Shown piece after piece: positions 31,839 to 35,812 of a DNA stretch of 53,317 nt; position 1 is the stretch's first letter, and each line of letters starts with the position of its first letter. The notes beneath the pieces are model-generated. The model ran no database searches. It saw only the letters and a program-made list of their open reading frames with translations, and had not been told where the DNA came from. Location: positions 1 through 53,317 of the forward strand of contig MNXA01000029.1 of NCBI GenBank assembly GCA_001871195.1. Direction: 5' to 3'. The translations under genes and the position numbers were made by a program. Source of the stretch: Zetaproteobacteria bacterium CG1_02_55_237. Lineage in GTDB: Bacteria > Pseudomonadota > Zetaproteobacteria > Mariprofundales > Mariprofundaceae.

Positions 31839-33761
31839 TCAAGCTATGGCGAAAAACCGCCGGACATCGCTCATTTCTTCCGTCTTCGGCGCACGCGGCA
31901 GATTTCTCGCCACCACGCGACCGTAGGATCGAGTGTACAGGCGCGAATCGAGAATGGCGATCACACCACGATCCTCCTGGGTGCGAATCAGCCTGCCCGC
32001 CCCCTGACGCAGGGCGGCCACCGCTTCCGGCAACTGGATATCGTAGAAGGCATTGCCGCCCTTCTTTTCGCAGGCCTCGCAGCGCGCCGCCAGCAGCCGG
32101 TCGTCGGGCGGCGCAAAGGGGATTTTATCGATAATCACCAGACTCAGTGATTCACCGGGCACATCCACGCCCTCCCAGAAGCTGCGCGTACCGCACAGGA
32201 CGGAATGCTTATCGTCCCGGAACTGCTGCAGAATCGCATCCTTGCTGCCGCTCTCATTCTGCACCAGCACCGGCCAGTCCACGGCTTCGGCCAGGCGTGG
32301 CGCAAGGCGGCGCAACATCTGATGCGAGGTGAACAACACAAAGGCACGACCGCTGGAGGCATCAAGCAGGGCCCGCATCTCGTCGAATAACGCATCCTCA
32401 TACTCAGCCGTGCCCGGTGCAGGAATATGGCGCGGCGCATAAATCATCGCCTGCGTGGCATAATCAAAGGGCGAAGGATGGGCCACGGCGAGCGCCTCCA
32501 CCCCCTCTTCCCCATCTGCTCCGGTATTCAGGCCGAAACGCTCGGCGGCATAGGCGAAGGAACCTGAAATGCGCAGTGTCGCGGAAAGCAGGATAAAGGA
32601 TGAGGCTCGCGACCACAGTTTCTCGCCCAGTACGGGGCCAGTTTCCACCGGGGCCAGAAGATGGGTGGCAACCCGCCCGCTGCCTTCCCGCCAGGCCACA
32701 TAGCCTTTGGGCGCCTTGAGGATGGCCTCGATGTCCATGCTGATGGCCTCGGCCCGGTCGGAGAGGCGGGCCGTTTCAGAACTTCGCTCACGACGCGCAT
32801 CGGCAAAGCCGGACAAGTCCTGCCAGGCCGTCTGTACACGCTCCAGATCGTCCCGGTCGAATGCCTCAACAACCTGAATAAACAGCATGCTCATATCACG
32901 CTTGAGATCGGCCTCGTCGCCGAATGCTTCCAGCACGCCTTGCATATCGTTATGCCATGTCGTCAATCGATTCAGGGCCACCTGACGACCGAAATGGCGG
33001 CAGGCAAGATCCGGCAAGGCATGCGCCTCGTCGAGAATGGTGACATCGAAATCGGGCAAAACCTCGCCGAAATCGCCGGATTTCAGTTGTGCATCGGCCA
33101 GCAGCAGGCTGTGGTTGCTGACCACAATATCCGCGTCCTGTGCCGCCTGCCGCGCATTGACCAGCGGGCATTCATTCCAGAAAGAACATTTGGTGCCCAG
33201 ACATTGCTCGGCGGTGGCCGTAATGCGGCTGCCGATACCGGCGGCAAAGACATCGAAGGAGAGGGATGCCAGATCGCCGTCGCGACTGTCCTTGGCCCAT
33301 TTATTCACCCTGAGCAGGCTGCGCTTGGCCCAGGGTTCGACCTTCGCATCCTGCAGGCTTTTCTCCAGACGCTGCGGACAAAGGTAGTTGGCCCGCCCCT
33401 TGAGCAGGGCAACGCGCCGGCGCACCCCCAGCGCCTTCTGCACCGTGGGAATATCGCGAAACATCAGCTGATCCTGCAGCGCACGGGTATGGGTAGAGAT
33501 AAGGACTTTATCCGCACAGCGCAGCGCCGGCACCAGATAGGCCAGTGTTTTGCCCGTACCCGTTTCCGCCTCGGCCAGCAACAGACCGCCCTGCTGCATG
33601 GTGTCGGCGATTTCCCCGCTGAGATCCACCTGTTCCTGACGGCAGACATAGCCCGGCATGGCCGATGCGAGCGCACCGTCCGGTTGAAAATCGCGGGTAG
33701 TTCGAACTGAAAAGGAATTAGGGCCTGTTAACACTAATTCTGGCCGTAGCGATATCGTCAT
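31839..33761 (-). CDS. DinG/YoaA-type Fe-S helicase, 5' end supplied by a MITE
   Basis: About 640 aa. XPD/DinG-like superfamily 2 helicase: Walker A AETGTGKT, Fe-S cysteines in RANYLCPQRLE and CLGTKCSFWNECPL, DEAH box in TILDEAHALPD, motif V/VI region TRSFWEGVDVPGESLSLVIIDKIPF and RQGAGRLIRTQEDRG. It unwinds 5' to 3' and takes part in repair. Host-like sequence starts about PNSFSVRTTRDFQPDGALASAMPGY; everything upstream of base 33720 is MITE. No ATG lies in the remaining host part before Met at 33659. Candidate starts inside the MITE are ATG 33761 (used here), ATG 33794 and GTG 33734, none with an SD. The original start was probably lost or displaced. Confidence 0.83.
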   Translation of the reverse strand: MTISLRPELVLTGPNSFSVRTTRDFQPDGALASAMPGYVCRQEQVDLSGEIADTMQQGGLLLAEAETGTGKTLAYLVPALRCADKVLISTHTRALQDQLMFRDIPTVQKALGVRRRVALLKGRANYLCPQRLEKSLQDAKVEPWAKRSLLRVNKWAKDSRDGDLASLSFDVFAAGIGSRITATAEQCLGTKCSFWNECPLVNARQAAQDADIVVSNHSLLLADAQLKSGDFGEVLPDFDVTILDEAHALPDLACRHFGRQVALNRLTTWHNDMQGVLEAFGDEADLKRDMSMLFIQVVEAFDRDDLERVQTAWQDLSGFADARRERSSETARLSDRAEAISMDIEAILKAPKGYVAWREGSGRVATHLLAPVETGPVLGEKLWSRASSFILLSATLRISGSFAYAAERFGLNTGADGEEGVEALAVAHPSPFDYATQAMIYAPRHIPAPGTAEYEDALFDEMRALLDASSGRAFVLFTSHQMLRRLAPRLAEAVDWPVLVQNESGSKDAILQQFRDDKHSVLCGTRSFWEGVDVPGESLSLVIIDKIPFAPPDDRLLAARCEACEKKGGNAFYDIQLPEAVAALRQGAGRLIRTQEDRGVIAILDSRLYTRSYGRVVARNLPRAPKTEEMSDVRRFFAIA

Positions 33762-33987
33762 TTTTGATGCGCTGCAAGGCATTTCGAGCGTCATGTGCTA
33801 TCTGCACATCAGCGAAAAATAACGCCGCAGAGCGCAAAAATGGCGTATCCCGCAGGGCTGCGCCCCAAATGTGGCCATTCAGCGTTGCTCGTCGTTCATT
33901 TGGATTCACCAAACTTCTCTCCTTGCGCCTTGACTGGCCACATTTGGGGCAGCAGCGCTTCGATCAGAATTAGTATTAACAGGCCCC
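33721..33987. mobile_element. MITE-like element with terminal inverted repeats
   Basis: The left end GGGCCTGTTAACACTAATTC (33721 on) and, on the other strand, the right end GGGCCTGTTAATACTAATTC (ending 33986) match at 27 of 31 bases over the extended ends. Inside, a 16-bp perfect inverted repeat sits at 33862-33877 and 33935-33950. There is no transposase; a 64-codon frame inside is probably spurious. The length is about 267 bp. No clear target duplication is seen. It lies between the helicase and the divergent PBP-GGDEF gene and overlaps the helicase 5' end. Confidence 0.78.
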
Positions 33988-34144
33988 TTGAGCATGAACT
34001 GCAAGCCTACTTCAGCATGGCGCATGCAGGCAAAGCCTCAATTAGCCACCATTCGGGATTCTCTTCACTGGCATCTCCGATGCTCTGCATTGCACACACG
34101 CGAAGGTCGTCGAATGACTGCTATCGATGTGATAAATTCCCCGC

Positions 34145-35812
34145 ATGAGAAGCAAATATTTTTCCTCCATATCCTGTAGAGCTGGATCAAGCCTTCTCTT
34201 TGTAGTCTGCATCTGCCTTTTTCCTTTTCTATCTGAAGCAAAACCCGAAACGATTTCCCTGCAATTAAAATGGAAGCATGCATTCCAGTTTGCCGGATTT
34301 TATATGGCCCAGGAGAAAGGGTTTTATCGCGATGCAGGCCTTGATGTTGATATCAGGGAAATGCAAACAGGGACGCATGCCGTTGATGAGCTTGCCAATG
34401 GTAAGGTGGATTACGCCTTGGGAGATACCGGAGTCTTATTGGCGCGTGCAAACGGGATCCCTATAAAAATATTGGCGGCGATTTTTCAGCACTCTCCTCT
34501 TGCCTTGATTGTGCGGAAGGAAGCGACCATAACAAAGATCACGGACCTGCGTGGAAAACGCATCATGATGACGCCCGGCCTGAATGCCGACATTCTTGCC
34601 GCACTCGGGGCTGTAGGAATTTCTTCCAGCGATTTCGTGCGTCAGGAAATCAGCTACGATATTAATGACCTGGTGAATGGGAATACCGATGCGTTCAGCA
34701 GTTATATTACAGATCAACCGCATCAGCTGGATTTGCGCCACATCCCTTATCGCATTTTTCGTCCCAGAGATTATGGCATAGATTTTTATGGAGACATTCT
34801 CGTTACCTCCGAGAAGGAGATAAAAAAACATCCTCAAAGGGCCAGGGCTTTTATCGATGCATCCATGCAGGGATGGCAATATGCCCTGGCCCATATTGAT
34901 GAGACCATTGACCTTATTCTGCAAAAATACAACACACAAAACCTGCATCGGGATCAGCTCAAATTTGAAGCCCTGAAAACAAAAGAGATGATTTTAGGCG
35001 ATATTGTTCAGATTGGTTATATGAGTGAGCTCCGCTGGCAGCACATCGCCGACATCTACACCTCCCAGGGTCTGCTTCCGGCCGGGTTTTCGGTTTCACA
35101 GGCCCTGTATCAACCTGACGTCGAGCTTCTTGATGTGCTTAAGGAAAACAGCTTAAAAATCACATTCGCCTTCCTGATCGTTCTCCTGTTTTTCTTTGCC
35201 CTGAACACCATGTATTTACGCAGGGCCGTAAAGCAAAGGACGAGCGAGCTGGAAAACAAGGAAAAGGAGCTTCAGCACCTGAACAGGGAGCTTGAGCTAC
35301 TATCCCTGCTGGATGGTCTGACCGGTATAGGAAACAGACGAATGTTTGATCAAGTGCTGGATAGAGAGTGGTTCCGCGCCCAGCGAGACAAGCATCCTGT
35401 TTCCGTCATCCTGATCGATGTTGATTTTTTCAAGCCATACAATGACTACTATGGGCATCAGCAGGGCGATGATTGCCTGACACGGGTTGCACATATCCTG
35501 AATGGCATCACGCACCGCTCAAGCGATTTATGTGCCCGCTATGGTGGTGAGGAGTTTGTTATTTTACTGCCGGATGCAGATTCGACAAATGCCCATCGAC
35601 TGGCAGAAGACTGTCGCATAAGCGTTGCCGATGCGGCTATCCCGCATATTCATTCAAAAGTCAGTAAGGTGGTTACCATCAGCATCGGTGTAAGCACTGT
35701 AATCCCTACAGTGGAATGCGACCCGTCCTCGCTTATCAAAGCTGCCGACAAGCTTCTATACAAGGCCAAGAAGAATGGTCGCAATCGGGTTGAATCCGAG
35801 CATCAGCCGTAA
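34145..35812 (+). CDS. Periplasmic NMT1/THI5-like binding domain fused to a GGDEF diguanylate cyclase
   Basis: 555 aa. Signal peptide 1-32. An NMT1/THI5-like solute-binding domain of about 280 residues (LQLKWKHAFQFAGFYMAQEKGFYRDAGLDVDI, DYALGDTGVLLARANGIPIKILA) normally serves ABC transport of pyrimidine/thiamine precursors or sulfonates. A single TM helix about 337-357, a short coiled coil, then GGDEF about 380-550 with GGEEF at 467-471 and an RSSD I-site at 458-461. The fusion would turn ligand capture in the periplasm into c-di-GMP synthesis in the cytoplasm. No ABC transporter is adjacent. Moderately AT-rich relative to the copper operon next door. Confidence 0.9.
   Translation: MRSKYFSSISCRAGSSLLFVVCICLFPFLSEAKPETISLQLKWKHAFQFAGFYMAQEKGFYRDAGLDVDIREMQTGTHAVDELANGKVDYALGDTGVLLARANGIPIKILAAIFQHSPLALIVRKEATITKITDLRGKRIMMTPGLNADILAALGAVGISSSDFVRQEISYDINDLVNGNTDAFSSYITDQPHQLDLRHIPYRIFRPRDYGIDFYGDILVTSEKEIKKHPQRARAFIDASMQGWQYALAHIDETIDLILQKYNTQNLHRDQLKFEALKTKEMILGDIVQIGYMSELRWQHIADIYTSQGLLPAGFSVSQALYQPDVELLDVLKENSLKITFAFLIVLLFFFALNTMYLRRAVKQRTSELENKEKELQHLNRELELLSLLDGLTGIGNRRMFDQVLDREWFRAQRDKHPVSVILIDVDFFKPYNDYYGHQQGDDCLTRVAHILNGITHRSSDLCARYGGEEFVILLPDADSTNAHRLAEDCRISVADAAIPHIHSKVSKVVTISIGVSTVIPTVECDPSSLIKAADKLLYKAKKNGRNRVESEHQP

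Follow-up and report, generated by a model that had tools for sequence, protein, structure and literature searches.

The window analysed here is a stretch of 53,317 nucleotides from the genome of Zetaproteobacteria bacterium CG1_02_55_237, for which Zetaproteobacteria bacterium CG06_land_8_20_14_3_00_59_53 was the nearest named relative. On its minus strand lies a gene for a DinG/YoaA-type helicase, in which Helicase_C_2 and DEAD_2 domains were found, the domain pair (DEAD or DEAD_2 with Helicase_C_2) by which such helicases are recognised. The 5′ end of the gene adjoins a short repeat element, a MITE, beyond which an NMT1/THI5-GGDEF gene is encoded (Table 1). In the sister species G002 and in G001, a 335-aa gene co-directional with the helicase is located just upstream of it. 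This gene is absent from the window and the NMT1/THI5-GGDEF gene lies on the other strand. The helicase is therefore now preceded by a divergent leader of its own. The swap of neighbouring genes is an event separate from the MITE insertion. A weaker relative (55%) of the NMT1/THI5-GGDEF gene was found elsewhere in G002.

Table 1. Features of the helicase locus and of the inserted element (positions in the window)
Feature	Position	Strand	Remarks
Helicase gene body	31839..33720	-	Helicase_C_2, DEAD_2; reading frame continues into the element as far as ATG 33794
Target-site TA	33719..33720		Left TA kept; right side reads CT (lost)
MITE	33721..33986		266 bp, two-fold symmetric, without transposase gene
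Left terminal inverted repeat	33721..33751	+	Outer 16-19 bp match IS5-family IS ends; in-frame GTG 33734 (minus strand)
Hairpin A	33751..33850 (approximate limits)	+	Variable outer stem, conserved core CAAGGC...TAACGC, inner stem ATGTGC/GCACAT; covariation
Central mini-hairpin CCCGCAGGG	33849..33857 (approximate coordinates)	+	
Hairpin B	33857..33956	+	Variable outer stem and conserved core; inverted homologue of hairpin A; modelled as R1
Right terminal inverted repeat	33956..33986	-	Inverted-repeat search
Probable native helicase start codon ATG	33993..33995	-	Left on the far side of the element; starts a frame of 29 codons that stops within it
NMT1/THI5-GGDEF gene	34145..35812	+	Occupies the place of the 335-aa gene that is co-directional with the helicase in G002 and G001

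The element, its ends and its target site

The element has terminal inverted repeats, a short length, multiple dispersed copies and ends that match those of an autonomous element, and it has no transposase gene, all of which are features of a MITE. An earlier reading made from the letters of the window alone (the sequence-only reading) had already proposed a MITE here, and most of its description was borne out. The terminal repeats, for which it gave 27 of 31 matching positions, are 31 nt long and 87% complementary. Its perfect 16-bp internal inverted repeat is nested in a 20-nt repeat with 95% complementarity (33862-33881 and 33931-33950). Only the right limit needed correction, from 33987 to 33986, where the multi-copy alignment sets the end of the element. 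The open reading frame list contained no frame of transposase length within the 266 bp. The same reading had suggested a search for other genomic copies, which yielded at least three more near-full copies in the source genome, on three other contigs (87, 79 and 77% identity), as well as many copies in relatives; covariance-model matches in the source genome numbered five. The DNA fold of the window element showed a z-score of -9.0, and none of 200 shuffled sequences was equally stable. Given these own-genome copies, this fold stability and the matches in 21 of the 61 genomes searched, all in the source's family f1, the element is not a product of chance.

In the multi-copy alignment, family copies run GGGYCTGTTNACAC...GTGTNAACAGRCCC and are mostly embedded between YTA and TAR, which corresponds to a duplicated TA. 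Many copies in relatives show TA on both sides, while the window copy and other own-genome copies show it on one side only. This single-sided TA was seen in all the own-genome copies checked (G000:C18, C42 and C22), unlike those in G030 or G015, and may indicate old insertions.

When the window terminal repeat was used as a query, plasmid loci were retrieved, mostly adjoining IS5-family transposases. The two best-defined insertion sequences (IS), one of 824 bp on a P. aeruginosa plasmid and one of 805 bp on an Enterobacter plasmid, encode a DUF4096/DDE transposase and run from GGGCCTGTTAAC, preceded by CTA, to an end followed by TAG. The outer 16-19 bp of the MITE terminal repeats match the ends of such IS5-family IS, and 16 of them are identical to the Enterobacter IS. 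Within the source's own family, G002 has an IS with the near-identical repeat GGGCGTGTTCACACTA, and transposase fragments occur directly behind TAGGGCCTGTTCACA in G014 and G034. Ends of the same type adjoin DUF4096-type transposases in G014, G034 and G055, and a matching IS5/DUF4096 transposase is present in G002, G014 and G034. No match to an IS5/DUF4096 transposase was obtained in the source genome (G000), the 54-contig assembly of which could miss a multi-copy IS. No similarity was detected between the interior of the MITE and those of the IS, only the terminal 16-34 bp being alignable. Therefore, the element uses IS5-type ends and is not a simple internal deletion of such an IS. The TA target also made DDE_3/IS630 transposases candidate parents, but none of the IS630-type loci fetched from the family has the MITE ends. 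The MITE would be mobilised in trans by an IS5-family transposase of the DUF4096 type (IS427-like) acting on the common ends.

The helicase gene and its start codon

The helicase gene of G002 starts with ATG TCC GTT GAT TCC TTT TCA, and the window coding strand past the element reads TA ATT CCT TTT CA. Before the element, the window coding strand (...TTTGCCTGCA...GTAGGCTTGCAGTTCATGCTCAAG) aligns with the upstream region of G002 with a score of 37, against a maximum of 35 in 2000 shuffles. The joined window flanks are collinear with the uninterrupted G002 gene through its ATGTCCGTTGATTCCTTTTCA (ATG). This empty-site comparison indicates that the MITE is inserted within codon 3-4 of a pre-existing gene for a DinG/YoaA-type helicase, presumably at a T-TA-A target. 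A missing blastn match and the missing TA had raised the question of whether the far flank was unrelated, as after a MITE-mediated rearrangement. This candidate was rejected when the far flank could be aligned to G002 as far as the native ATG.

The sequence-only reading had placed the MITE at the 5′ end of the helicase gene, with the frame passing through the left terminal repeat. Both statements are correct, and the position can now be given to the codon. It had also held that a relative lacking the element and starting at Met 33659 would speak against its view. The N-termini of element-free relatives were compared, and their starts lie upstream of 33721 (MSVDSFSSRISRDFQ in G002 and MSEDSSFSAVINKDFQ in G003). 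Its suggestion that the start codon had been replaced was not upheld: the native ATG survives at 33995 on the far side of the element, parted from the gene body by 266 bp and a stop. The frame from this ATG reads MLKGPVNTNSDRSAAAPNVASQGARREVW before the stop inside the element, where translation from the native start would end.

The in-frame starts inside the element are ATG 33794, ATG 33782, ATG 33761 and GTG 33734, of which the sequence-only reading had missed ATG 33782; the next is only ATG 33659. As it had noted for its starts, no clear Shine-Dalgarno sequence precedes any in-frame start, and some helicase starts in relatives also lack one as judged by eye. GTG 33734 in the terminal repeat would give MLTGPNSFSVRTTRDFQPDG (MLTGPNSFSVRTTRDFQ), which is near the N-termini of relatives in length. 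By our reading of its sequence, G024 appears to use a GTG at the equivalent position. The helicases of close relatives start a few residues before the conserved F-S...DFQPDG. Translation of the helicase most likely begins anew within the element, where GTG 33734 would be the best start.

A different reading is that the helicase is translated from ATG 33659, with about 20 residues lost and the PGYVxRxEQ segment kept, and that the element alters transcription only. This is the first start outside the element, and it precedes both the PGY..R.EQ segment and Walker A. However, we consider this reading unlikely, since the lost residues contain the segment DFQPDGALA conserved in relatives, and since for most full-length homologues, including some from beyond the family, the match starts at query residues 2-4, ahead of Met 33659. 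ATG 33659 also lacks a Shine-Dalgarno sequence. It is similarly improbable that a recent insertion inactivated the helicase and that the gene is a pseudogene in the making. The separation of the native start from the gene body by 266 bp and a stop would agree with inactivation, as would the absence of any promoter match within 33600-34300. Transcription from upstream would also sequester the start region in a highly stable hairpin, the predicted unpaired probability of GTG 33734 being 0.13 for a transcript that starts upstream of the element and 0.38-0.43 for one that starts inside it. However, the 615-codon frame is intact, the dN/dS between the window and G002 is 0.104 with no relaxed selection, and unique amino-acid changes are fewer in the window lineage (11) than in G002 (27). 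These data do not support the abolished expression envisaged by the sequence-only reading, though a very recent inactivation is conceivable. One TA copy has already decayed, which argues against a very recent insertion. Replacement of the promoter, also proposed there, is no more than possible; the co-directional upstream gene of G002 and G001 is gone here as well.

The family and fold of the element

Full-length copies are mostly 263-270 bp long and range from Zetaproteobacteria to Pseudomonas, Azotobacter and Halomonas. The common architecture was found in Azotobacter (265 bp), Halomonas (264 bp), a P. aeruginosa plasmid (265 bp), IMG/VR contigs (263 and 266 bp) and other Pseudomonadota genomes, the gammaproteobacterial assignment of the outside copies resting on the Azotobacter, Halomonas and Pseudomonas records. 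Internal insertions bring a few copies to 281-308 bp. When 398 Pseudomonadota genomes were searched with the covariance model of hairpin B (R1), 69 had matches, of which 37 belong to f1 and 32 do not. The element had no match in Rfam, and the family was not found, by terminal-repeat sequence or by description, in the papers searched. Apparently, the repeat family has not been described before.

G007 carries more than ten copies. More than 40 terminal-repeat ends were seen in this one 1.9-Mb genome, in which many contigs break inside the element; its true copy number is therefore higher. Short derivatives have preserved the two terminal repeats but only a single hairpin or none (L072 2122-2226 and L075 2823-2927, 105 bp each; L078 2153-2284, 132 bp; L073 2313-2364, 52 bp). 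A full, unannotated family copy is located on a P. aeruginosa IncP conjugative plasmid (L191 3003-3267; NZ_CP017294.1 8551-8815). A solitary terminal repeat, GGGTCTGTTAACACTAATG, in L118 2077-2100 (G007:C1:69077) is immediately followed by the start codon ATG of a purB-like gene (MKLSEISALSPLDGRYAGKV), and other single ends abut coding-looking sequence (L115, L116, L125 and L127). Terminal repeats may have remained at gene borders.

The consensus fold over 27 copies (42-89% pairwise identity) consists of a terminal stem, hairpin A, a central CCCNNNGGG mini-hairpin and hairpin B. It contains 89 pairs, 69 of which have changes on both sides. Paired cells amounted to 92.6%, against 75.3% in shuffled and about 39% in slid alignments, and the covariation score was 0.485 versus 0.160. 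The cores of hairpins A and B are inverted homologues of each other (mean z 4.5). Zeta- and gammaproteobacterial copies share 73% identity in core B, which has the sequence GCGTTGCTCGTCGTTCATTTGGAN5CCAAACTTCTCTCCTTGCGCCTTG, against 48% in its outer stem and 35% in the inner terminal stem; stem identities spanned 35-49%. In a test limited to those pairs that were predicted for both strands, G-U and A-C were equally frequent in the terminal stem (22 versus 22) and not significantly different in hairpin A (25 versus 13, p = 0.07) and hairpin B (13 versus 20, p = 0.30). This lack of strand preference indicates that pairing is kept at the DNA level and not in one RNA strand.

The fold could alternatively belong to a functional non-coding RNA carried by the element, for which the strong compensatory change, the conserved loop sequences and the fixed length would speak. 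We regard this as quite unlikely, because the strand-specific pairing of a structured RNA (G-U tolerated, A-C not) was not seen in the terminal stem or in either hairpin, and because the element resembles no RNA family described in Rfam. A mechanical origin of the compensatory changes deserves more weight, though it is less likely than not. Template switching between the inverted arms (quasi-palindrome correction), and not selection for structure, would account for the absence of strand bias and for arms that are near-perfect within a copy and strongly different between lineages. It leaves unexplained, however, why core B is conserved from class to class, why internal mismatches (the unpaired cores) have been retained and why the length is 263-270 bp. 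The two inverted core copies probably bind a protein, either of the host or the transposase, in an element whose whole length is kept self-complementary as DNA. We tentatively propose that the duplicated hairpin cores are functional modules selected across Pseudomonadota, making the element a mobile DNA structure and not passive filler between borrowed IS5 ends. As such modules, they might form a cruciform or a pair of single-stranded hairpins, the fixed geometry of which (263-270 bp) would be read by a protein of the host or by the transposase. As a whole, the account that we hold to be likely comprises an IS5-type MITE in codon 3-4 of the helicase gene, a translational restart in the element, and a pan-Pseudomonadota, self-complementary family with two hairpin cores.

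Significance and comparison with known repeats

The presence of a MITE beside a gene is ordinary, and the novelty at this locus is in the element family. Its unusual features are a covarying fold over the whole length, a near-fixed length and duplicated conserved hairpin cores. The family is common to Zetaproteobacteria and several Gammaproteobacteria, and has IS5-type ends but not an IS5-type interior. It makes testable whether such interiors are binding modules of the parasites or products of arm-to-arm correction. The helicase locus itself offers a clear-cut natural example in which the terminal repeat of a transposon may provide the start codon of a gene that is still under purifying selection.

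In common with the IS5-family DUF4096 IS, the MITE has the outer 16-19 bp of the terminal repeats and a YTAR target, with the TA duplicated in many family copies. These IS, however, carry a transposase, which the MITE lacks, and its interior shares nothing with theirs. ERIC and Correia-type MITEs are short, palindromic, inserted at TA, present in many copies and strongly structured, and the element is like them in all these respects; it differs by its two inverted hairpin modules with conserved cores. ERIC is common in E. coli, while the P. aeruginosa copy had no match in 5,426 E. coli genomes. The R0-R200 repeats of Pseudomonas fluorescens are intergenic and 50-352 bp in size, and some are MITE-like with hairpins (PMC2718517). 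The sizes listed there, such as 320 bp for R200, include no 266-bp family (PMC2718517), and it is by listed size that the element is set apart. TIMEs, non-autonomous inverted-repeat elements in Pseudomonas, are by definition miniature elements derived from Tn3 (PMC4133298). This description distinguishes them from the present MITE, the ends of which match the IS5 family.
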